Shown here: piece after piece, positions 9,297 through 20,238 of the stretch | How the letters are laid out: the number at the start of each line of letters is the position of its first letter | Numbering within the stretch: the stretch's first letter is position 1 | Notes under the pieces: generated by a model | The model's database searches: none | The model's input: only the letters and a program-made list of their open reading frames with translations | What the model was told of the DNA's origin: nothing | Position numbers and translations under genes: made by a program | Origin: a virus | Strand: one strand, 5' to 3' | DNA length: 26,954 nucleotides | IMG/VR virus record: IMGVR_UViG_3300029448_000145 | Location: 1 to 26,954 of that record

Positions 9297-9430
9297 ACTT
9301 AGTATAGCTAAGTAGTAGTATAGTATCTGTCAATAGTGAGTATAGTATTATAGTATAATAGTAGTATAGTATAGTAGTAGTATAGTATAGTATTAGTATA
9401 GTATAATATAGTAATATAGTATAGTATAGT
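9297..9430 (+). repeat. TAG/TATAG short tandem array
   Basis: About 130 bases built almost entirely from TAGTA and TATAG units, with runs of 5'-TAG trinucleotides (for example from 9309). It begins right after the DnaA boxes and ends at a short GC-rich patch (ACCCCGCCC). DnaA-trio unwinding motifs are also TAG-type trinucleotides, so this may be the melting zone of an origin. It could equally be a polymerase-slippage microsatellite. No reading frame of note crosses it. Confidence 0.75.
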
Positions 9431-9654
9431 ACCCCGCCCAAGCTAAATCTTAAAAAAATTGAAAAAAATTAAATTTGTATTCGTGTTCTTCTTATAATTT
9501 GCATGGGTACTCCCCCCTAGCCCGATTAGGTTGAAATACTTGAATTGAGAAATTCGTTTTTGATTGCAGGCTCGTTAAAATATGCAGGACAATAAAATAT
9601 AGCGGTCAAAAACAATCTCTATAAGTCTAACAATATCAACAGATAAAATTAATT

Positions 9655-9691
9655 TGGAACCAACAGTGCGATTTCACATATATATAGTAAC
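9655..9691 (+). promoter_or_regulatory. Degenerate copy of the TGGAAC-N15 promoter motif
   Basis: TGGAAC at 9655-9660, then 15 bases, then ACATATATATAGTA. The spacing and the AT-rich end match the four better copies downstream, where the last element is GCGT plus TATA-like sequence, but the GCGT is replaced by ACAT. It would transcribe the amidoligase operon and give a leader of about 130 bases. Confidence 0.4.
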
Positions 9692-9725
9692 AAACGGGAT
9701 ATACTTTTTATATCAGGAACTTGCT

Positions 9726-9790
9726 AATAGTATTAATGTGAATTACTCTACTGCTTCACGGTATCCAATCCGGATTCAATTAATACTATT
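9726..9790 (+). promoter_or_regulatory. Structured leader element before the amidoligase gene
   Basis: A perfect 12-base inverted repeat (AATAGTATTAAT at 9726-9737, ATTAATACTATT at 9779-9790) encloses a second hairpin (GTGAA 9738-9742 with TTCAC 9755-9759) and a third small one (ATCC 9763-9766 with GGAT 9772-9775). The 12-base stem and the GTGAA hairpin abut without a gap, so the fold is a three-way junction about 35 bases upstream of the start codon. It could be a riboswitch-like or protein-binding leader, or a DNA operator. The ribosome-binding site (AAGGA at 9811) lies outside the stem. Confidence 0.5.
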
Positions 9791-9824
9791 CTTTATTGAA
9801 TCTTAAATTAAAGGAATTTTAATA

Positions 9825-11129
9825 ATGAGCAATATATTAAATAGTTTAAAGAATATTAGTTCAGAAGGAATTAACAAACTTAAAGAGATAAGAAACACGC
9901 ATAATTGCGGGGTCTGTCATGAGTTAATTAATTCTAATACTGATACTAATGTTATGTATTCGGACAGTCTTCAAGGATGGTTTCATCATGAATGTTTAGA
10001 TACCTTACCTAGATGTAATTCTTGCGACAACGCAAGCTATCATTTAGAATCCGGTATTTGCTCTAGATGTATGAATAGCCAATCTATAAGAAATTATTCT
10101 TATAAACCGGCTCCATTATTTCATAGGGTTAATAACAAGAAAAAATCTGTTTTAATCTCTGAAAGTGGATATTCAAAACATGAGTTACCTATTCTGCATT
10201 TCGGTGTAGAAATTGAGGTAGATAGACATGAAGACTTTTACGAAGATGACTATGACGACAATATTATATTGACTGATAACAATTTCGCTTCTTTAGTTGG
10301 TATAATCGGACGTTCAATAAAAGGGAGTAATCTTTTTTATTCAAAGTCTGATAGTTCACTGACTGAACAAGGGGTTGAAGTTGTTTCACATCCTTTTAGT
10401 TGGAACTATTGGAAAACATTCGCTATAGATATTTATGACGGTTTATTTTCTACATTATTAGCAAGTGGCTATTATAGTGCAGAAACTAAAAAAGCCGGAA
10501 TGCATATACACGTCTCAAAGTCTGCAATAAATAAAACGCAACTACACAAACTTTTATGGTTTGTCTATGAGTGTCCTAATTTTATTAATATGATTGCGGG
10601 ACGTAGTAGTGATAAATGGGCTTCAACTAAATGGTCTAGTTTATTAGGTGTGACTGATTCAACTTTTGCATATAAAAGGAACAAGGTTGCTAGCATAGCT
10701 AATCAAAAAAGTTCTAATACTGCATCACGTTACACTGCTATAAACATGGAGCCATCTAATTCAATAGAGTTTAGAATCTTTAATGGTACATTAAATATTA
10801 TGACTCTATCAAAGGCTATTGAATTTATTCATTCTTTGCTTGCTTATTGTTCGCAAACGTCTTTTAAAGACATTGTAAACAGAAAAAGCGAAGTTGAACG
10901 AATAAAGGGATACCTTAAGTTTTTATCTAATAATCAAAGTAGATATTCAAATTTATGTATATTTTTAGATAGAGAGATGAATGAATTATCCAATGCTAAG
11001 AAAAAGCAATTATTCGGAAACGCAAAGGATAAAGTTAATAGGCAACTTGTTTTAGATGGTGGTTTCAGAAATTCTGAAAATAGAACTGCAACATCTTTTA
11101 ACCTAGATAGAAAAGGAATGATACTATAA
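9825..11129 (+). CDS. Amidoligase (glutamine-synthetase-like) with N-terminal zinc domain
   Basis: A 434-residue enzyme of the Amidoligase_2 type, predicted to use ATP to join a carboxylate to an amine. The catalytic domain starts near residue 120: HFGVEIEVD carries the paired metal-binding glutamates E129 and E131, KAGMHIHVSKS is the family's G-x-H-x-H motif, and SRYTAINMEPSNSIEFRIFN followed by GTLN is the arginine/E-F-R signature. The N-terminus is a LIM/RING-like zinc module with C28, C31, H54, C57, C64, C67, C79 and C82. A good AAGGA lies eight bases before the ATG. Its TAA overlaps the next ATG, coupling it to an amidotransferase that could supply ammonia. The substrate is unknown; a protein or peptide target is plausible given the zinc module. 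Confidence 0.85.
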   Translation: MSNILNSLKNISSEGINKLKEIRNTHNCGVCHELINSNTDTNVMYSDSLQGWFHHECLDTLPRCNSCDNASYHLESGICSRCMNSQSIRNYSYKPAPLFHRVNNKKKSVLISESGYSKHELPILHFGVEIEVDRHEDFYEDDYDDNIILTDNNFASLVGIIGRSIKGSNLFYSKSDSSLTEQGVEVVSHPFSWNYWKTFAIDIYDGLFSTLLASGYYSAETKKAGMHIHVSKSAINKTQLHKLLWFVYECPNFINMIAGRSSDKWASTKWSSLLGVTDSTFAYKRNKVASIANQKSSNTASRYTAINMEPSNSIEFRIFNGTLNIMTLSKAIEFIHSLLAYCSQTSFKDIVNRKSEVERIKGYLKFLSNNQSRYSNLCIFLDREMNELSNAKKKQLFGNAKDKVNRQLVLDGGFRNSENRTATSFNLDRKGMIL

Positions 11130-11878
11130 TGTGCATTGTAATACTAAAGAAGAAAAACGCTAAGATATCAAAGGAAAAACTAGCAGAATCATTTAAAAAT
11201 AATCCTGATGGGTCGGGTTACCTATTCGCTAAGAATGGAAATCTAACTATCAAAAAAGGGTTTTTTGTTTTTGATGATTTCTATAATAGTTATTCTAGAG
11301 ATATGGAGCAATTCAATAATCCGATATCAATTATTCATTTTAGAATAACGACACACGGATTAACGAATAAAACTAATTGCCATCCTCATATGATAAACGA
11401 TGAATTGGGTTTCGCTCACAATGGAATAATTGGATTTGTTGATGACCATAAGAAAAAATCTGATACTCTAGTTTTTAGAAACGATATTTTGAGAGGAATG
11501 CCTAATGGATTTATTTTTAATAATTCTATCATGGCATTAATCGAAGAATCCATCGGTAACTCTAAGCTAGTATTTTTAGATAAAAATGGAAATTGGAATA
11601 TTGCCAATGAATTTATGGGTCATTGGAATAAGAAAAATACCATATGGTACTCTAATAAATCCTATTGTGAAACGAAGAAATTTGTTACTCATTGGAATCG
11701 AGGCAATTACGTCTATCAAAACTACGAACCACTAAAAAAGAAGAATAATACGAAGAATATAGAACGAACTCAATGTAGGACTTGCTTCAGTGGACTTATG
11801 ACTCTTGGAGAGAGAAAATTAGGTCACTGTCAGCCATGTCAATTAGATGGAGTAGCGGGAAATCCTAAGAGGATATAA
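11129..11878 (+). CDS. Class II glutamine amidotransferase (Ntn hydrolase)
   Basis: A 249-residue protein beginning MCIVIL, so that removal of Met exposes Cys2 as the catalytic nucleophile, as in class II glutaminase domains. Family motifs follow: HFRITTHGLTN (about residues 71-81), CHPHMIN, and FAHNGIIGF (about 95), which hold the Arg, His and Asn-Gly used for glutamine binding and the oxyanion hole. The C-terminal 30 residues form a zinc knuckle pair (CRTC and CQPC), unusual for this fold and echoing the zinc module of the amidoligase. Start and preceding stop overlap as TAATG. It may release ammonia for the amidoligase, or act as an Ntn amidase that reverses its product. Confidence 0.85.
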   Translation: MCIVILKKKNAKISKEKLAESFKNNPDGSGYLFAKNGNLTIKKGFFVFDDFYNSYSRDMEQFNNPISIIHFRITTHGLTNKTNCHPHMINDELGFAHNGIIGFVDDHKKKSDTLVFRNDILRGMPNGFIFNNSIMALIEESIGNSKLVFLDKNGNWNIANEFMGHWNKKNTIWYSNKSYCETKKFVTHWNRGNYVYQNYEPLKKKNNTKNIERTQCRTCFSGLMTLGERKLGHCQPCQLDGVAGNPKRI

Positions 11879-12354: not shown

Positions 12355-12625
12355 AAAATAGTTAGAATTATAACGATGTATATATATAAAATATATTGTA
12401 TGCACGCTGGTAAACGCTGGTAAGTTTTTTTAATATATATCTTATGCACGCAAGTAATAACGCACGCCCATTTTTATTATAATGTATGCAAGCAAGTAAT
12501 ATATGCAAGCAAGTAAGGCACTATATATATATTTCATGCAAGCGGGTAAATAGTATCCGATTTGAGCGGGTTTAAGGCTTGTTTGGGGCTATGTCTTATT
12601 ATACATAATCCTATTAAAGACGCAT

Positions 12626-12715: not shown

Positions 12716-12750
12716 TGGAACTTTTTAGAACTTCTTGCGTATATATAATA
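12716..12750 (+). promoter_or_regulatory. TGGAAC-N15-GCGT promoter motif, copy 1
   Basis: TGGAAC (12716-12721), 15 bases, GCGT (12737-12740), then TATA-like ATATATAATA. It lies 31 bases before the metzincin start. Three other copies have exactly the same spacing. Confidence 0.65.
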
Positions 12751-12771
12751 ACAAAACAAATAAGGAATAAA

Positions 12772-13203
12772 ATGTATAAAAACAAATTAAAAAACAAGAC
12801 GGCTTATGGTTCTAAGTTATTAAAAATGGATAACGATACCTACGCTTTAAGGCGTAGAGTAATAAACAGAATATATAAATATAATAATGAATTACAGAGA
12901 TTAGATTTGCCAAAACTACCAAGAATTGAAGTAAGAGTTGTAAGCAAGTGTACAGATTGCCCCGAAGGCTTGAGCGGTGTTGCAGGATATGCTTATTTGA
13001 ATAAAAGAATTATACATATTCCCGAAAATTCATTTAAATATAAGGGGGTATTATTTGACCAATTAATAATGCATGAAATATTACATTCAATAGGTTTTAA
13101 CCATAAGAAAAATTGTCCCGTAATGCATCCTTCAATGCACAAAGTAAATAGAATAAAATTAGAAAATACTTTTTACAATTATTTAAAAAATTATAATAAC
13201 TAG
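12772..13203 (+). CDS. Metzincin-like zinc metalloprotease
   Basis: A 143-residue protein with the complete metzincin zinc motif HEILHSIGFNH (residues 101-111, pattern HExxHxxGxxH) and a Met-turn-like VMHPS at 117-121. It has no signal peptide, so it would act inside the infected cell unless packaged; the N-terminus is strongly basic. I chose this ATG because AAGGA lies a few bases upstream and the promoter would be transcribed into any earlier start. CTDC at residues 60-63 is an extra Cys pair. It is the first gene after the iteron region, so early expression is likely. The target could be a host protein; this is inference. Confidence 0.75.
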   Translation: MYKNKLKNKTAYGSKLLKMDNDTYALRRRVINRIYKYNNELQRLDLPKLPRIEVRVVSKCTDCPEGLSGVAGYAYLNKRIIHIPENSFKYKGVLFDQLIMHEILHSIGFNHKKNCPVMHPSMHKVNRIKLENTFYNYLKNYNN

Positions 13204-13225
13204 ACAAAAACAAGGAGTAATTAAA

Positions 13226-13570
13226 ATGAATACATTAACATTTAAAGATAATGAATTAAGAGAGTATATAAACGATTCTATAAATGAATGGAAAGAAGAC
13301 GAAGATTATGAGAATATGAAGGAGGATTTTCATTTTCATTTATTTAATGAAGATTACTATATAATAGGCACGTACAAGGCTGAAAAATGGCTAGGTGATA
13401 ACGCTTTTAAGGTAATAGATTATATAAAAGAATATGAAAAAGATAATTTCGGGGAAGTAACTACAGATTTTTCAAGTCCCGAAGCGGTGGTAAATATGTT
13501 CGCTTATATTAGGGGCGAGGAATTACTCGCAGATAGAGAAGAAAATAAAACAACTTGGAGGGGTATATAA
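13226..13570 (+). CDS. Hypothetical acidic protein
   Basis: A 114-residue, strongly acidic protein (many Glu and Asp), preceded by AAGGAG and followed after one base by the next gene. Aromatic and His-rich FHFHLFNEDYYIIGTY lies near residue 35-50, then a helical part with WLGDNAFKVIDYIKEYEKD. It has no cysteine, membrane segment or catalytic motif that I can name. Small acidic early phage proteins frequently bind host enzymes or mimic DNA, but nothing here proves this. Confidence 0.7.
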   Translation: MNTLTFKDNELREYINDSINEWKEDEDYENMKEDFHFHLFNEDYYIIGTYKAEKWLGDNAFKVIDYIKEYEKDNFGEVTTDFSSPEAVVNMFAYIRGEELLADREENKTTWRGI

Positions 13571-13571
13571 A

Positions 13572-13730
13572 ATGAATTACAGATTATTTAATGTTAAAAT
13601 AGGTTTATACGAAAATCAAATAGTTAAATACGATTATCAATATTCAATGGATGCAGTAAAGGAAATACTAGAAGATAATCCAAGTATCTTTGTTGAAAAT
13701 GATGGTAGTTGGGTTTTTACAAAAGATTAA
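13572..13730 (+). CDS. Hypothetical 52-residue protein
   Basis: Starts one base after the preceding stop and is probably translated by coupling. The protein begins MNYRLFNVKIGLYENQIVKY and ends with a Trp-Val-Phe segment, with a helix in between (MDAVKEILED), a compact alpha/beta look. No motif is recognised. It is the last gene of the transcription unit started by promoter copy 1, because another promoter copy follows at 13747. Confidence 0.6.
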   Translation: MNYRLFNVKIGLYENQIVKYDYQYSMDAVKEILEDNPSIFVENDGSWVFTKD

Positions 13731-13746
13731 TAAAATAAAAATAATA

Positions 13747-13784
13747 TGGAACTTTTTTTGAAGTTCTGCGTTATAGAGATATAA
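13747..13784 (+). promoter_or_regulatory. TGGAAC-N15-GCGT promoter motif, copy 2
   Basis: TGGAAC (13747-13752), 15 bases, GCGT (13768-13771), TATAGAG. Within it GAACTT and AAGTTC form an inverted repeat. The motif is followed by AAGGAG and the ATG at 13810. Confidence 0.65.
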
Positions 13785-13809
13785 GCAAGTAAAAAACAAG
13801 GAGTAAAAC

Positions 13810-13995
13810 ATGACAAAAACGCAAATAAAAAAGGAATTTAAGAACGCAGGCGTACAAATTGGCGGAGGTGCTATGGATAGTATTGAGTATGAATTAGTAT
13901 GCTTTGTACGTAGGATGGCAAATAGATGTGCCGAAGGTAATGTAAAAAGACTTACACCCGAATTAATGTGGTGTGCTTTAGGGAGGGCTAAATAA
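13810..13995 (+). CDS. Small histone-fold-like protein (candidate)
   Basis: A 61-residue protein whose layout looks like a single histone fold: short helix (IKKEFKNAG, 6-14), a loop, a long central helix (AMDSIEYELVCFVRRMANRC, 21-40), then RLTPELMWCAL (47-57) as loop plus third helix. KNAG and the RxT-P-E start of the last helix resemble archaeal histones and TAF/NF-Y proteins; the central helix is about two residues shorter. It has its own promoter and a good AAGGAG. If correct it would bind DNA as a dimer, perhaps compacting phage DNA or remodelling host chromatin. A generic three-helix protein is the alternative. Its stop overlaps the next ATG (TAATG). Confidence 0.6.
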   Translation: MTKTQIKKEFKNAGVQIGGGAMDSIEYELVCFVRRMANRCAEGNVKRLTPELMWCALGRAK

Positions 13996-14162
13996 TGCTA
14001 AATAAGGTAAGTAAAAAAGAGTGTATGGATGCCATAGAGTATTTATTTACTATGGGTTATACATTAGAAATGACTAGTGATAAAAAATATTATACTGAAA
14101 TACTACTTAAAAAGGTAGCTAATGATTATAATATAGAACTTAAGGGTATAGATGATGAGTGA
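13995..14162 (+). CDS. Hypothetical 55-residue protein
   Basis: Start overlaps the previous stop (TAATG) and its own end overlaps the next start by eight bases, so it is embedded in a coupled series. It is a mostly helical, charged protein with one Cys; CMDAIEYLFTMGYTLEM is an amphipathic helix. No family is recognised. Confidence 0.6.
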   Translation: MLNKVSKKECMDAIEYLFTMGYTLEMTSDKKYYTEILLKKVANDYNIELKGIDDE

Positions 14163-14313
14163 TTTTAAATTAACTAAGGAAGAATTTTGCTACAACGATT
14201 TAAGAGATAGACTCATAGACCATGGAGAAAATGCTTTTATTCATTATGTAGAGAGGCAGTATAATAACTATAAAGAGGGGTATAAAAAAGAATCAAGGCG
14301 AGAATATGAATAA
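14155..14313 (+). CDS. Hypothetical 52-residue protein
   Basis: Begins inside the end of the preceding gene and ends inside the start of the next one, both by eight bases. The protein is charged and aromatic with a basic, Tyr-rich end (NNYKEGYKKESRREYE). No motif is recognised; its existence is supported by the tight chain of overlapping starts and stops. Confidence 0.55.
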   Translation: MSDFKLTKEEFCYNDLRDRLIDHGENAFIHYVERQYNNYKEGYKKESRREYE

Positions 14314-14497
14314 GAAAATAATATCTATGATGGAGGAACGCTTAGAAAAAGGTAAGCGAGAATATAACGAAGAGTTAGATGTTCATGATGGCAGAGATTG
14401 GGTAGAAGAGGCACTAGAAGAGGTTTTAGATGGTCTAGTCTACCTAACTGCCAAACTTTTACAAATTAAAGAAAGGGAAAAAAATGAGAAAATTTAA
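14306..14497 (+). CDS. MazG-like nucleotide pyrophosphohydrolase fragment-sized protein
   Basis: A 63-residue helical protein. MEERLEKGKREYNEELDVHD and RDWVEEALEEVLDGLVYLTA (about residues 30-49) match the helical E-E-x-x-D magnesium motif of small phage MazG/DUF550-type proteins (EExLDxxxYL). Full-length MazG domains are about 90-100 residues, so this is a minimal version and may need to dimerise or may have lost activity. Related enzymes hydrolyse nucleoside triphosphates or alarmones and help phages keep host metabolism active. Nearby genes give no further clue. Confidence 0.5.
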   Translation: MNKKIISMMEERLEKGKREYNEELDVHDGRDWVEEALEEVLDGLVYLTAKLLQIKEREKNEKI

Positions 14498-14654
14498 AAT
14501 AGCTATTGAAAATACTACCATAGAATTTTGGGAGGTAGAGGCTGAAAATATTAATGACGCTGAAGAGAATTACATGGGTGGAAAATGTGTAAGTACTAAG
14601 CCTAAACAAGATGAGTTTTTATGGTCTAAAGAAATAATAAGCGAGGAGGAATAA
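14484..14654 (+). CDS. Hypothetical 56-residue protein, DpnD/PcfM-like
   Basis: The start overlaps the preceding gene and follows a purine-rich GAAAGGGAAA stretch. MRKFKIAIENTTIEFWEVEA, then ENINDAEENY, has the beta-beta-alpha layout seen in DpnD/PcfM-type small proteins (short strands followed by an A-E-N-x-x-D-A-E helix). This is a weak match from memory, and the function of that family is not established. Its stop overlaps the next ATG. Confidence 0.5.
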   Translation: MRKFKIAIENTTIEFWEVEAENINDAEENYMGGKCVSTKPKQDEFLWSKEIISEEE

Positions 14655-14905
14655 TGATAAAATTATTAGGTAAACAAAAAGACTTAGAGCATAGCTATTA
14701 TTCTACATCTAAAGCTGATTACATAATCAAAGATTTAAATCAAAATGGATTTGAAGGTAAGTATATTTTAAGTGTTTTAGGTGGTACTATTATCTACCCA
14801 AACTATAAAGAAGCTGATGAAATAGTATCCGCTTGGGTAGGTGGAGGAACAATGCAAGAAGTAACAGAAAATAGTTGGGAGTATGTAGATGATAACAGAA
14901 AATGA
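14654..14905 (+). CDS. Hypothetical 83-residue protein
   Basis: AGGAGGAA lies before the ATG, which overlaps the previous stop. Alpha/beta in character: KADYIIKDLNQNGFEGKYIL then GGTIIYPNYKEADEIVSAWV, and a Gly-rich VGGGTMQEVTE turn. No catalytic motif or cysteine. Unknown function. Confidence 0.6.
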   Translation: MIKLLGKQKDLEHSYYSTSKADYIIKDLNQNGFEGKYILSVLGGTIIYPNYKEADEIVSAWVGGGTMQEVTENSWEYVDDNRK

Positions 14906-15068
14906 TATAATATTTGACCATTTATACGATGACTTTAAAAGGACAATGGATGGGGAAGGTAGTGTAAACTTAATAGCTTACATGGAAGAAAACGAAATTA
15001 ATCAAGAATTAATGATGCAGATTTGGGAGGCTTATATTTTAGAAGTAGAAAAAAGGAGTGATAAATGA
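14889..15068 (+). CDS. Hypothetical 59-residue protein
   Basis: Starts 17 bases inside the end of the preceding gene and ends overlapping the next start (ATGA type). Acidic N-terminal half, amphipathic helices, and a basic final tail (EVEKRSDK). No family recognised. Confidence 0.55.
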   Translation: MITENDIIFDHLYDDFKRTMDGEGSVNLIAYMEENEINQELMMQIWEAYILEVEKRSDK

Positions 15069-15217
15069 TGATTTACACAATTTTATCTTTAATAATAATG
15101 GTTCTTTTAATATGTATAGCTTATCTAAAAACTAAGCTAAATGTAACAGAGAATAATTTAAATAATTGGAAAGAATCCGCTCTTAAATTAAATAGTATTA
15201 TTAGAAATAATCAGTAA
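15065..15217 (+). CDS. Small membrane protein
   Basis: A 50-residue protein with one strongly hydrophobic segment at residues 3-20 (IYTILSLIIMVLLICIAY), followed by LKTKL and a charged helix rich in Asn. This is the shape of a single-pass inner-membrane protein with its C-terminus either inside or outside. Size and layout would also suit a small holin-like protein or inner-membrane spanin-type protein, but it is not next to the endolysin and no lipobox or partner is visible. AAGGAG lies just before the start. There are two adjacent ATG codons. Confidence 0.65.
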   Translation: MMIYTILSLIIMVLLICIAYLKTKLNVTENNLNNWKESALKLNSIIRNNQ

Positions 15218-15220
15218 TCC

Positions 15221-15233
15221 TATTATACATAAT
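15221..15233 (+). promoter_or_regulatory. TATTATACATAAT operator-like motif
   Basis: An exact copy of the 13-mer that recurs at 12275, 12597 and 18341, here ending in the start codon of the following nuclease gene. A bound protein would block both the promoter region and the start. The extension TATTATACATAATGTC is shared with the 18341 copy. Confidence 0.45.
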
Positions 15234-15639
15234 GTCTGAAACAATAAAATTAAGCAAAACTCGTAAAGGTTACATAGGGGAAAATATGGTAATAAAATTT
15301 CTATTAGAGAGGAATTTAAGGTTGTATATCCCCGCAGTAGATGATTTTGGTATAGACTTATTAGTAGAACAAAATAATAAATACACGACAATACAAGTAA
15401 AATATCATACTACAATGATGTCAGAATCTGCAATACAAGTTAGGGTAAGACCTACAAAAGCTGATTATATCGCCATACCTGTTAAAGCATATGGTCGAAT
15501 GCATATTATGTGGTATAAAAATACACGAAAGAACAGAAAATACACGATTGCGTTTCAGAAATATATACCAAAGAATAACCAAATAAAGAAGATTAATTTC
15601 TTTAAATCTTTTTTAGAATGTCCCTTCGATAAAAAATAA
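15232..15639 (+). CDS. PD-(D/E)XK endonuclease
   Basis: A 135-residue nuclease-like protein. The motif set of the PDDEXK_5 family is visible: GYIGENMVIKFLLERNL with E17, DDFGIDLLVEQNN with D42, and TIQVKYHT with Q55-x-K57. Length is typical for a stand-alone single domain. The C-terminal third is basic. It probably cuts or processes DNA; no partner methylase is near, so a restriction enzyme is unlikely. The ATG lies inside the operator-like motif and has no Shine-Dalgarno immediately upstream. Confidence 0.75.
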   Translation: MSETIKLSKTRKGYIGENMVIKFLLERNLRLYIPAVDDFGIDLLVEQNNKYTTIQVKYHTTMMSESAIQVRVRPTKADYIAIPVKAYGRMHIMWYKNTRKNRKYTIAFQKYIPKNNQIKKINFFKSFLECPFDKK

Positions 15640-15641
15640 TT

Positions 15642-15680
15642 TGGAACTTTTTTAAAACTTATGCGTTATAGAGTTAAACA
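15642..15680 (+). promoter_or_regulatory. TGGAAC-N15-GCGT promoter motif, copy 3
   Basis: TGGAAC (15642-15647), 15 bases, GCGT (15663-15666), then TATAGAG as in copy 2. The next gene begins at 15710, after AAAGGAAA. Confidence 0.65.
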
Positions 15681-15709
15681 ATAAAAGAAAAAGACTAAAA
15701 GGAAATAAA

Positions 15710-16177
15710 ATGATAAATAAACCTAAATATTACTTAGATAAGATGGCATCTAATACGGATGTCTTTACTGAAGAAACATCGGATAAAGCTGGATTTACAT
15801 TTACCGCATCTTCAGATGATTCATTTGGATTAAATAAAATGATTGAAGTAGGTGTGTATAAAGATTTTGAAGAAGAGTTTATACGATTAGAACATGAAAA
15901 AAGACAAGGTTCTTTTATGATAATTGGTAAAGATAATTGGGATAATGATAAAAAAGAAGGAGACCTATATGCTTTTGTATGCATGATGAAGAAAAAAGAT
16001 TCAGGAACTATGACATATATTTTTAAAGATTTTTGGAATAATAGAGAAAAAATTACAGACATTCTAACGATGCTTTCTAGGGGAATATATGTAAAAAGTA
16101 TAGATGGTATAGATATTGATGTTTTAAATAAAGCATTAGATATGAAGAAAAAAAATGGAACTTTTTTACCTAACTAG
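15710..16177 (+). CDS. Hypothetical protein with its own promoter
   Basis: A 155-residue protein, AAGGA upstream. Alpha/beta in appearance: GFTFTASSDDSFGLNKMIEV, GSFMIIGKDNWDND, and DLYAFVCMMKKKDSGTMTYI. The C-terminal part is helical (NNREKITDILTMLSRGIYVK). One Cys, no membrane segment, no catalytic motif that I can name. Its last ~20 bases overlap promoter copy 4. Confidence 0.65.
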   Translation: MINKPKYYLDKMASNTDVFTEETSDKAGFTFTASSDDSFGLNKMIEVGVYKDFEEEFIRLEHEKRQGSFMIIGKDNWDNDKKEGDLYAFVCMMKKKDSGTMTYIFKDFWNNREKITDILTMLSRGIYVKSIDGIDIDVLNKALDMKKKNGTFLPN

Positions 16178-16190
16178 CGTTGTATATATA
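16156..16190 (+). promoter_or_regulatory. TGGAAC-N15-GCGT promoter motif, copy 4
   Basis: TGGAAC (16156-16161), 15 bases, GCGT (16177-16180), then TGTATATATA. It overlaps the end of the preceding gene. The predicted start of transcription (about 16196) falls after the ATG at 16190, so it may serve a leaderless 43-residue gene from 16199 or the structured RNA further on. Confidence 0.6.
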
Positions 16191-16330
16191 TGAGTAGAAT
16201 GAGTTATATATCACAATTAATTACTGATGAAAACTATGAACAATTACAAATAGAAGTCGGTAAGAAATATGCAAAAAAGTTTATTAAAGCACATAATAAA
16301 ATATTAAAACGTAATGATAAAAGAATTTAA
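16190..16330 (+). CDS. Hypothetical 46-residue protein
   Basis: A basic peptide (MSRMSYISQLITDENYEQLQ then IEVGKKYAKKFIKAHNKILK and RNDKRI), helical, no cysteine. The first ATG lies in the promoter's TATA region; the third codon pair gives an alternative start at 16199, which would fit a leaderless transcript. No Shine-Dalgarno is present for either. No family recognised. Confidence 0.4.
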   Translation: MSRMSYISQLITDENYEQLQIEVGKKYAKKFIKAHNKILKRNDKRI

Positions 16331-16678: not shown

Positions 16679-16909
16679 ATGTTTGCAACTTTAGATAATT
16701 TAGAAAAAGAACTACACCAAGAAATAAAAAAAGTAGAGAAAAAATGGGACGACGAGCCTAAAAAAGATTATTACTTTCATGAAATATGTGGTATAAATAA
16801 AGCTATTGATGTAGTAGAAAGATTTAAATCAAAAGAGTTACTTGAATTAGATAAGTGGGTAGAATCTTTTATAAAAAAAGAAAAAGAAGGGAATACTTTA
16901 AGTGATTGA
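16679..16909 (+). CDS. Hypothetical 76-residue helical protein
   Basis: TAGGAG lies eight bases before the ATG, directly after the last hairpin of the structured region. The protein is highly charged and mostly helical, coiled-coil-like at the N-terminus (LDNLEKELHQEIKKVEKKWD), and has one His-Cys pair (YYFHEICGINKA). It overlaps the Cas4-like gene by eight bases and so is probably co-translated. Unknown function. Confidence 0.6.
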   Translation: MFATLDNLEKELHQEIKKVEKKWDDEPKKDYYFHEICGINKAIDVVERFKSKELLELDKWVESFIKKEKEGNTLSD

Positions 16910-17636
16910 TATTAAAGATATATACGATAAGTATATAGCAGATAAAAATGAGTTAAATAGACAAAAGAGATATGTGGGTAAGGAGCAGTGGTTTCATGCA
17001 TCTTCATCTGGAATGTGTATGAGAAAACACTACTTTCAGCACGTTGCTAAAGTAAAACCTAACCCAATAGATGCTAATACAATGAGATTGTTTAGGATTG
17101 GAGATATGGTTCACGAAGATATACAAAATGCGTTAACTGAATATGCTCAATTAAATGGTTCTAAAATATATATTGAAACAGAAATAAGGTTACCCGAAGT
17201 AAATGTAAGGGGATTTTTAGATGTATTAATTGCCGATGATGGTGCTTTATATGATATAAAGACCTGTAACTCTAGAAAATGGAGTAAATTATTTGGATAT
17301 AAATACAAAGACCCGAATCCATCTATTAATTATCATCTTCAATTAGGTACTTATGCATGGTGGTATGAAAAGGAGCATAATACTAAATTAAAAAAATTAG
17401 CTTTATTTTATTATAATAAGGATACCTCTAGGGTTAGAGAATATCCTGTTGACTTAGCTTTTATAGAAGAAGCGAAAGTATATTGGAGAGACTTAAATAA
17501 TAAATTTAAAAAAGGTAACCCTCCTATCGAACTAGGTATTGCCCCGATGTATTCGTGGGAATGTAATATAAAGTATTGCAATTTTTACAGAGTTTGTGGT
17601 GGAGGTCTAAAAGGAGAAGGAGAAAGTACGTTATGA
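16902..17636 (+). CDS. Cas4-like PD-(D/E)XK exonuclease with iron-sulfur cysteines
   Basis: A 244-residue RecB/Cas4-family nuclease. C39 near the N-terminus and C221, C226 and C232 near the C-terminus have the one-plus-three arrangement that binds a 4Fe-4S cluster in Cas4 and AddB. The active site is H71 (GDMVHED), D107 (RGFLDVLI), D118-x-K120 (YDIKTC) and the Q-x3-Y motif at 147-151 (QLGTY). Related phage proteins degrade DNA ends or process recombination intermediates. No cas genes or CRISPR array lie nearby, so it acts alone or with the local recombination genes. It starts with GTG, overlapping the preceding gene, and ends overlapping the next ATG (ATGA). Confidence 0.88.
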   Translation: MIDIKDIYDKYIADKNELNRQKRYVGKEQWFHASSSGMCMRKHYFQHVAKVKPNPIDANTMRLFRIGDMVHEDIQNALTEYAQLNGSKIYIETEIRLPEVNVRGFLDVLIADDGALYDIKTCNSRKWSKLFGYKYKDPNPSINYHLQLGTYAWWYEKEHNTKLKKLALFYYNKDTSRVREYPVDLAFIEEAKVYWRDLNNKFKKGNPPIELGIAPMYSWECNIKYCNFYRVCGGGLKGEGESTL

Positions 17637-18037
17637 ACGATAACAAACAACCCGATTGGGACAAAATAACTGAAGGCAAGATAAGGCATGGTATTGCTGT
17701 AGAAGCTTTCAGTAAAGGCATGGAACTTAATGCTGACAATATGAAAACCATTGAAAAATGGGTTCAGTTTGTGATACATGGTTATGATGGTATCAAAAAC
17801 ATTGTTAAGGTTAGCAAAGATGATGATATGCCAAAGGGAGATGAAGAATTATTTCCTGAAGATAATGATATTGGTGATACTTTTGATGTTATAATCAGAA
17901 AAAATGCTGAATCTTTAAGAGCCTCTGACAAAGAAATAGTTCTAAAGGCATTAGAAGATGGGAAAATTACCCCTGAAAATCTTCAAGTAAGTTTAGATAG
18001 AATAAGTCAGATGATAGATGGGTATGGAGAATTATAA
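17633..18037 (+). CDS. Hypothetical protein downstream of the Cas4-like nuclease
   Basis: A 134-residue acidic protein. I chose the ATG at 17633 (overlapping the nuclease stop, with AAGGAGAA upstream) over upstream in-frame codons that would overlap the nuclease gene by 60 bases. It begins MNDNKQPDWDKITEGKIRHG, then a helix with VEAFSKGMELNADNMKTIEK, an acidic linker with DDDMPKGDEELFPEDND, and a final helical part. No recognised domain; adjacency suggests a partner in DNA processing. Confidence 0.6.
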   Translation: MNDNKQPDWDKITEGKIRHGIAVEAFSKGMELNADNMKTIEKWVQFVIHGYDGIKNIVKVSKDDDMPKGDEELFPEDNDIGDTFDVIIRKNAESLRASDKEIVLKALEDGKITPENLQVSLDRISQMIDGYGEL

Positions 18038-18467
18038 TGATATTATCCCCACAGGCAGATATAAGGCGACAATAGTTGATATTGAATGTAGTTCAAATGT
18101 CAGATTTGGCAACCATATATCTGATGTCTTTAAGCCTGTTTATTCTATAGATGATGATAAGTTTTTATCACTAAAGGGTAAGCAGGTTAAGGACAATGGT
18201 ATATTTGTGTATAAAAAAATGTCAGGATATAAGTTTGAACCAAAAAGAAATTGGGGATACTCTAAGTATTTAAAATTAATGGAGTTAACTAAAAGAAGAG
18301 ATAATGAATCAGGTATGATTGCACCATTAAATAAAAAAGATATTATACATAATGTCGTAAACATTGATGTTTTTGAAAAATCTTTTACTAATGACTTTAA
18401 TCAGTTTGTTAAATACAATGTTGCAAGAACTGTAGAATTAATAAGAAAAGGAGATATTCCGTTTTGA
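18018..18467 (+). CDS. Hypothetical protein, possibly single-strand-binding-like
   Basis: A 149-residue protein overlapping the previous gene by 20 bases; ATG codons at 18018 and 18024 are both possible. IIPTGRYKATIVDIECSSNV followed by FGNHISDVFKPVYSID resembles the beginning of small phage OB-fold or DUF669-like proteins (P-x-G-x-Y-x-A-x-I), which suits its place among recombination genes, but the match is loose. The second half is basic with KMSGYKFEPKRNWGYSKYLK. A TATTATACATAAT motif lies inside it at 18341. One Cys. Confidence 0.5.
   Translation: MGMENYNDIIPTGRYKATIVDIECSSNVRFGNHISDVFKPVYSIDDDKFLSLKGKQVKDNGIFVYKKMSGYKFEPKRNWGYSKYLKLMELTKRRDNESGMIAPLNKKDIIHNVVNIDVFEKSFTNDFNQFVKYNVARTVELIRKGDIPF
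18341..18353 (+). promoter_or_regulatory. TATTATACATAAT operator-like motif inside a gene
   Basis: An exact copy of the 13-mer within the coding part of the 149-residue gene, sharing TATTATACATAATGTC with the copy at 15221. Its place inside a gene would be unusual for a simple promoter and suggests a binding site with another role, or chance. Confidence 0.35.
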
Positions 18468-19525: not shown

Positions 19526-19859
19526 GAAAAAAGACCCGAAAAGAGTTAGGCAAGGCCGAAGAAATAGGCAACGTGGTGCTGAACTACAAAGATTTTCTGT
19601 TAAGCTGGCTAAAGAATATAACTTGGAAGCTTTCAATAGGGATAGGGGTGGTGCTCAACATGAGAAAGGAGACATAGAAATTGAAGGTAGATACTATGGT
19701 TGTAAACGTAGAACAAAGATAGCTAAATGGTGCAAACCTGAAAAAGAAGAAGATGGTGTTGTGATAAGAGAAGATTATGGTAAGGCATATATTGTTTTAG
19801 ATTATGAAAAATTTATTATGCTTTTATCTATGTTAAAAGAATTTAAAGATGACGTATAA
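19518..19859 (+). CDS. Holliday-junction-resolvase-like nuclease
   Basis: A 113-residue PD-(D/E)XK protein of the Hjc-like type found in phages. E22 (RQRGAELQRFSVKLAKE), D52 (KGDIEIEG) and K63 (YYGCKRRTK) fit the usual E, D and K; the acidic residue two before the lysine is Gly (G-C-K), a variant I recall in other phage members. The N-terminus is very basic, suiting DNA binding. It would resolve branched DNA before packaging. I preferred the ATG at 19518 over a TTG six bases earlier because of AAAGGATA spacing. It overlaps the next gene by 11 bases. Confidence 0.65.
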   Translation: MAKKKDPKRVRQGRRNRQRGAELQRFSVKLAKEYNLEAFNRDRGGAQHEKGDIEIEGRYYGCKRRTKIAKWCKPEKEEDGVVIREDYGKAYIVLDYEKFIMLLSMLKEFKDDV

Positions 19860-20238
19860 CCCCAACTTTGATTTAGATTTACAATTTGGTCTTATCTATG
19901 AAAGAAAACTAGAAAGACTATTACGAGAAAAAAGCAAGATAGAGATAAAAACTGAAAGAGATACTTGGGCGAAGACAGGTAATATAGCTATTGAAGTAAA
20001 TTTTAAAGGAAAGCCTTCGGGTTTAGCCGCAACTAAAGCTGATTGGTGGTTTCACATACTAACAATAGATGGGGAAATGGAAACTATGGTTTGTTTTCCT
20101 GTTAAAAAATTAAAAGATATTATTAGGGAACTTTTAAAGAAAGGATTAGTTAAAAGAGTAAAAGGTGGAGATAACAACGATTCAGAACTTTTATTGGTTC
20201 CTATTGATAAATTAATTTCAAAAGATTTTTTTAAATAA
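19849..20238 (+). CDS. Nuclease-like phage protein, possible PD-(D/E)XK fold
   Basis: A 129-residue protein overlapping the resolvase-like gene. E18 in LIYERKLERLL, then KIEIKTERDTWAKTGNIAIE with E32-x-K34, then FKGKPSGLAATKADWWFHI. The E-x-K strand and the GKPSG-x-x-x-T-x-ADWW block recur in a family of phage and bacterial nuclease-like proteins as I remember. With the neighbour it may form a two-subunit nuclease module, since the overlap suggests coupled translation. Its last 40 residues are basic. Activity is not shown. Confidence 0.55.
   Translation: MTYNPNFDLDLQFGLIYERKLERLLREKSKIEIKTERDTWAKTGNIAIEVNFKGKPSGLAATKADWWFHILTIDGEMETMVCFPVKKLKDIIRELLKKGLVKRVKGGDNNDSELLLVPIDKLISKDFFK

Follow-up and report, generated by a model that had tools for sequence, protein, structure and literature searches.

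A two-part element resembling ECF-sigma promoters ahead of the early genes in a family of uncultivated phages

What reads a short element that recurs on one strand of a phage, ahead of its early genes, and who supplies the reader? The question is raised by the window analysed here, a 26,954-base stretch of the 36,849-base virus record IMGVR_UViG_3300029448_000145. The sequence-only reading had described four copies of TGGAAC-N15-GCGT, and exactly four are found in the window, all on the plus strand and facing the early genes, as it had said, with none in the late direction (Table 1). One hundred dinucleotide shuffles of the window gave a mean of 0.01 copies and never four, and the TGGAACTTTTT-N10-GCGT form has no extra copy in the remainder of the record. 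All four copies carry the expected run of T after TGGAAC, AAC at -35 and CGT at -10. The degenerate fifth copy proposed at 9655 is also real: its position is kept in several close relatives, where the site before the amidoligase gene has either the same form as in the window or GGAAC with different -10 bases.

Table 1. Copies of the element and neighbouring features in the window
Feature	Position	Strand	-35	-10	Spacer	Context
Copy 1	12716..12744	+	TGGAACTTTTT (12716-12726)	CGTATAT (12738-12744)	16	Upstream of ORF 12772-13203
Copy 2	13747..13776	+	TGGAACTTTTT	CGTTATAG	16	Upstream of ORF 13810-13995
Copy 3	15642..15671	+	TGGAACTTTTT	CGTTATAG	16	Directly after ORF 15232-15639, upstream of ORF 15710-16177
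Copy 4	16156..16185	+	TGGAACTTTTT	CGTTGTAT	16	Overlaps 3' end of ORF 15710-16177
Degenerate copy, GGAAC-N16-CATATATA	9655..9685	+	GGAAC	CATATATA	16	Ahead of amidoligase operon
Part of sigma70-like site, TTGACAGATACTATA	9319..9333	-				Toward late genes
First gene after copy 1	12772..13203	+				Small protein with HEILHSIGFNH
Core early genes	16679..17636	+				76-aa protein and PD-(D/E)XK nuclease
Core early gene, 149-aa protein	18018..18467	+				OB-fold, SSB-like model

The motif recurs in a large family of uncultivated phages, and its form across the family is that of a predicted two-part promoter: a -35 box TGGAACTTTTT, a free spacer and a -10 box (C/A)GTATAA, GGAAC and CGT being separated by 16 or 17 bases. 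In early gaps the spacing peaks at 16 (n=22) and 17 (n=3), and in divergent gaps the values are 16 (n=2) and 17 (n=6). The earlier description of exactly 15 bases followed by GCGT is true of the four window copies but is only their local form, because only 24 of 46 family sites have G in front of CGT and the GGAAC-to-CGT spacer can be 16 or 17. In the relatives, for which AAC served as the search key, the -10 begins with CGT in 33 of 49 early intergenic sites, with AGT in 13 and with TGT in two.

In 16 phages, whose sites are not independent because the records share ancestry, 49 of 50 intergenic [TG]GGAACTT sites point toward the early genes, "intergenic" being defined by a simple ORF caller and a trust filter, and 48 of these carry xGT at a spacing of exactly 16 or 17 bases; none of 26 minus-strand coding sites has CGT. 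Because of the caller and filter, some likely real sites are counted as coding (G000 16156, G014 11433, G015 15372). Sites inside the nuclease gene and a 143-aa gene of G006 probably reflect coding conservation and were excluded from the promoter count. Across 20 records, GGAACTT-N13..16-CGT gave 49 matches, on a single strand in each record, against six for the reversed pattern; four of the 20 had no match. The motif occurs in 39 of 139 early same-strand gaps and in none of 98 late gaps, and in 33 of the 39 early-gap sites the -10 lies 27-64 bases from the start codon. TGGAAC is the commonest 6-mer of early gaps (41 gaps against 4.9 expected, and four late), outranking the ribosome-binding site. 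A stricter pattern found 38 contigs in IMG/VR, 35 of which carry genes of this phage family; five of the 38 are records from which the gene set was defined, which leaves 30 new ones out of 33. The three others (L134, L137 and L161) have no family genes and one site each, and were taken as chance matches.

Absence of the motif upstream of the same genes in close relatives had been named as what would speak against a promoter, and that comparison, made locus by locus after removing loci with identical upstream ends, instead found counterparts of copies 1-3. Copy 1 has one before the same next gene in three of five other loci (L016, L019, L039), copy 2 is matched in six of six by a site no more than 403 bases ahead of the same gene, and copy 3 in five of 11 by a site in the corresponding position behind the same ORF, including L016 (CGT), L039 and L019 (AGT). 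Site positions are kept across loci although the spacers differ. Copy 4, which overlaps a coding end and whose downstream ORF 16190-16330 has no relative in the comparison set, is the weakest promoter candidate of the four. The core early genes at 16679..17636 have a site at most 403 bases upstream in 27 of 32 other loci, often about 59 or 209 bases before the gene for the 76-aa protein. Early-strand clusters present in at least 12 of 16 records comprise a nuclease, an OB-fold protein, an SSB-like protein, a resolvase-like protein and small proteins of 76, 88 and 134 aa. The product of the first gene after copy 1 has a weak zinc metalloprotease match (Matrixin, E 0.0088, below the cut-off). 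No tRNA genes were found in the window or in the 36 stretches scanned.

Which class of promoter does this form resemble? The proposal of a shared early promoter element whose two halves are read by one protein or sigma factor gains support. The argument that the gap exceeds what a plain sigma-70 site allows does not survive: GGAAC and CGTATA lie at an ordinary -35/-10 distance, which is the spacing of the sigma70 family and exactly that of its ECF class, a class that the sequence-only reading had not named. The motif does not fit a plain sigma70 promoter (TTGACA/TATAAT), the -35 being TGGAAC. Sigma-54 was correctly dismissed: the motif resembles GG-N10-GC promoters in starting with TGG, but in none of the four copies does GC follow GG at a distance of ten bases. 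AAC at -35 and CGT at -10 are described as the hallmark of ECF promoters (PMC8103513). SigW promoters of Bacillus subtilis, given as TGAAACN16,17CGTA(T) (PMC2375139), share with the phage motif the two boxes, AAC at -35, CGTAT at -10 and the 16- or 17-base spacer; the phage motif differs in having TGGAAC rather than TGAAAC, and in its location in a phage. Promoters of EcfG and the alphaproteobacterial general stress response, given as GGAAC-N16-CGTT (PMC3892343), have an identical -35 and spacer. Copies 2-4 match GGAAC-N16/17-CGTT, whereas copy 1 and most relatives have CGTA; the phage family also departs from EcfG promoters in favouring CGTATA and in tolerating AGTATA.

We favour, as a reasonably probable reading, that the motif is an ECF-sigma-type promoter and that RNA polymerase carrying a host-supplied ECF sigma drives most early operons. 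The element, its strand preference, its spacing, its conservation and the absence of a recognisable sigma gene are observed; recognition by an ECF sigma, the host origin of that sigma and the early timing are all three inferred. Region 4 of the sigma would contact GGAAC(TTT) and region 2 CGTATA, with transcription starting about 10 bases beyond CGTATA. In this phage and its family, this polymerase would drive the separate early operons, accessory as well as replicative, while the late genes, and possibly also the earliest transcript, would come from ordinary sigma70-type promoters. That the sigma is probably borrowed from the host follows from the fact that none is evident in these phages: sigma70 region 2 (PF04542) matched in 0 of 53 records, Sigma70_r4_2 (PF08281) in 0 of 20 and TIGR02937 in 0 of 46. 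A missing gene is weak evidence in most records, because most are fragments; G001, G006 and G009 look complete because their first 20 bases repeat near their end. The 149-aa core protein was considered as a hidden sigma and rejected on its OB/SSB-like barrel model (pLDDT 78; best Foldseek E 0.0064). The model of the 134-aa core protein is helical and of low confidence (pLDDT 63). Profiles of both proteins gave no sigma match in the PDB, and members of the 134-aa family matched no sigma family in PHROGs.

The strongest rival, though an unlikely one, is that host sigma70 reads the -10 (GTATAAT) and that the usual -35 contact is replaced by binding to TGGAACTTT, either of an activator from phage or host or of a phage protein that remodels sigma region 4. 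The -10 base counts, made with duplicates removed (48 to 46 sites) and the single site without GT excluded, lend this some weight: 11 of 46 sites match TATAAT exactly, 33 are at most one base off at the right place, and 38 have A at -11. The AGT found in place of CGT in 13 of the 46 likewise counts against the ECF reading. The distance from TGGAAC to TATAAT, 18 bases, is one that sigma70 permits. Yet G precedes TATAAT in 48 of 49 sites chosen by the -35 alone, which sigma70 does not need, and T at -7, normally among the best-conserved sigma70 bases, is present in only 24 of 46. The same phages also have separate sigma70-like TTGACA sites, and no clear DNA-binding activator fold was seen among the core early proteins, of which some of the small ones were modelled. 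Less probable again is a very divergent phage-encoded sigma, in the style of phiEco32 or 7-11, that the profile libraries missed. That the IMG/VR scan found the motif confined to this family (35 of 38 contigs) would suit it, and there are precedents: phiEco32 and SU10 have an alternative sigma, annotated as ECF, with a GTATA-type -10, tAATGTATAtA, SU10 CDS32 being identical to phiEco32 gp36 (PMC4281155), and phage 7-11 also encodes its own sigma (PMC4331800). These phages, as described there, resemble the present family in having operons with a GTATA-type -10 of the alternative-sigma kind, but they carry the gene for their sigma, which serves middle and late genes through a short motif; the family here shows no sigma gene in the profile searches above, and its motif has a strong -35 and serves early genes. 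Those profile results count against a phage sigma, as do the other assignments among the widespread early clusters; the 134-aa protein is a possible, though unlikely, candidate.

An operator or RNA-level signal in place of a promoter is very improbable. It could account for the GAACTT/AAGTTC inverted repeat, which the sequence-only reading rightly saw in copy 2 and which is kept as GAACT/AGTTC in a near relative (L005), and the first site of G006 overlaps a large inverted repeat. But the repeat does not belong to the motif in general, because L019 and L039 lack it at the corresponding position, and the two fixed blocks, the free spacer, the promoter-like distance between them and the 27-64 bases to the start codon fit a promoter better. 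A structured RNA was also considered; no Rfam family matched. Chance or an alignment artefact, for which the only argument found is that the genome is rich in A+T, is refuted by the shuffles, the reversed-pattern control and the early versus late gap counts, and we give it practically no credence.

Phages normally use strong housekeeping promoters for their early genes, or encode a sigma factor or polymerase themselves. In the open-access literature we found no phage family whose early promoters are of ECF type but which lacks a sigma gene. It is a tentative extension of the host ECF sigma reading that, in a widespread marine family, a stress ECF sigma of the host has come to control most early and replication genes, the phages having none of their own, such that infection or host stress gates the programme and the choice of 16- or 17-base spacers and of CGT or AGT grades operon strength or timing. 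If so, phage infection would be tied to host stress signalling, and the host would have to be a bacterium in which an ECF sigma recognises GGAAC/CGTA.

No close cultured relative was found, and the terminase, searched against genome contigs both alone and in an alignment of 17 members, had no match either way. Against named phages the terminase, the capsid, the 677-aa late protein, the nuclease, the amidoligase and others gave distant matches or none. The early 129-aa protein at 19849 was given little weight because its cluster is present in 4 of 16 records; its best matches are pelagiphage and Puniceispirillum phage proteins (44-46%), which hints weakly at a host among the Alphaproteobacteria.

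All four copies of TGGAAC-N15-GCGT that the sequence-only reading had taken for shared promoter elements are present at their plus-strand positions (see table), against 0.01 expected from shuffles. The remaining 9.9 kb of the full 36,849-base record (G000) hold no further copy of TGGAACTTTTT-N10-GCGT. In G000 many small early genes lie on the plus strand from ~9.8 to 22 kb, and late genes, among them terminase and capsid, both by distant match, lie on the minus strand, the labels early and late being inferred from gene content. A terminase search of IMG/VR gave at least 594 related stretches, of which 80 were retained; no close relative was found among cultured phages. Fifteen long relatives were read at full or near-full length, and in these the motif lies on the strand opposite terminase. 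GGAACTT-N13..16-CGT has 49 matches over 20 records, occurring in 16 of them and on a single strand within each, versus six for the reversed pattern. A stricter pattern, TTTGGAACTTTTT-N10-GCGTATAA, scanned across 2.9 million IMG/VR contigs, hit 38, and 35 of these have genes in common with the phage family (five are records that defined the gene set).

Coordinates of the motif copies and neighbouring features (window positions unless stated)
Feature	Position	Strand	Observation
Copy 1	12716	+	counterpart at same gene-order place in 3/5 other loci; spacer letters differ
Copy 2	13747	+	counterpart in 6/6; spacer letters differ
Copy 3	15642	+	counterpart in 5/11; spacer letters differ
Copy 4	16156	+	
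Degenerate copy	9655	+	several relatives match with GGAAC-N16-CATATATA or GGAAC variants
Divergent region	9300-9435		low-complexity TAGTATAG repeats adjoining sigma70-like TTGACAGATACTATA (-)
Leader, 9655 site to amidoligase gene	9680-9824		blocks such as AGGAACTTGC and GGTATCCAATCC kept in relatives
First early genes	9825-11878		Amidoligase_2 protein; another protein, weakly matching class-II glutamine amidotransferase
Iteron-like repeats	12400-12549	+	five ATGCAMGCNNGTAA, non-coding, shortly before copy 1
129-aa early protein	19849-20238		phrog_13596
First early site, relative G006	L098 8870-8930		-10 is one arm of large inverted repeat CGTATAATAGTCAAA...TTTGACAATTATACG

With TGGAACTTT as the only criterion for gathering sites across all loci, CGT followed GGAAC after 16 bases in 32 of 113 non-redundant sites and after 17 in six, with at most four sites at any other offset. 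Across the 16 joined records, 50 [TG]GGAACTT sites are intergenic; 49 are oriented towards early genes, and GT is in register at 48 of the 49 (33 CGT, 13 AGT, 2 TGT). Called genes contain 76 such sites, with CGT in 0/26 on the minus strand and 12/50 on the plus strand; some of the latter 12 are likely true sites beneath over-called ORFs. TGGAAC is the top enriched 6-mer in early gaps (41 gaps versus 4.9 expected; four late gaps), and the motif, allowing either CGT or AGT, occurs in 39/139 early same-strand gaps of at least 40 bases, 8/21 divergent gaps (on the plus strand) and 0/98 late gaps. The consensus of the aligned -10 regions is (C/A)GTATAA. Of 32 other loci, 27 carry a site no more than 403 bases upstream of the core 76-aa gene, commonly near -59 or -209, and the first early site in other clades mostly has a 17-base spacer and full CGT.

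According to a review, ECF sigma factors recognise AAC at -35 and CGT at -10 (PMC8103513); SigW reads TGAAACN16,17CGTA, extended to CGTAT (PMC2375139), and EcfG reads GGAAC-N16-CGTT (PMC3892343). The phage motif shares the boxes and both spacer lengths of these promoters, and for that resemblance is best called a putative ECF-type promoter. The earlier argument against sigma70, an excessive gap length, fails on geometry, since the two halves sit at -35 and -10. Reading of the -10 by sigma70, with its -35 contact replaced, is possible because 33 of the 46 -10 regions differ from TATAAT by no more than one base; but the G preceding TATAA is near-invariant and T at -7 is weak. Moreover, TTGACA-type sites exist separately in the divergent region: a plus-strand site ending TATATATT (15 distinct sequences, other clades) and the sigma70-like minus-strand TTGACAGATACTATA (window and close relatives).

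Six-frame searches, in which control genomes gave positive signal, found no sigma70 region 2 in 53 records, no Sigma70_r4_2 in 20 and no TIGR02937 in 46; in three searched records (G001, G006, G009) the first 20 bases recur near the end. Two core early proteins of at least 130 aa lack a named family: one is an SSB-like OB-fold and the other, of 134 aa, gives a poor helical model. A host factor is thus the likeliest reader of the ECF-type motif, unlike in phiEco32, whose own sigma, gp36, serves middle and late promoters (PMC4281155).

The ATGCAMGCNNGTAA stretch (0.14 repeats expected, at most one mismatch permitted) is a possible replication origin. The leader folds modestly (z -1.7) and matches no Rfam family; the 146-base G006 stretch with the inverted repeat folds far better than its shuffles (z -5.9). 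The Amidoligase_2 and glutamine amidotransferase-like pair is kept in 6 of 16 records. The phrog_13596 protein is 44-46% identical to Pelagibacter and Puniceispirillum phage proteins, matches that may point weakly to an alphaproteobacterial host.
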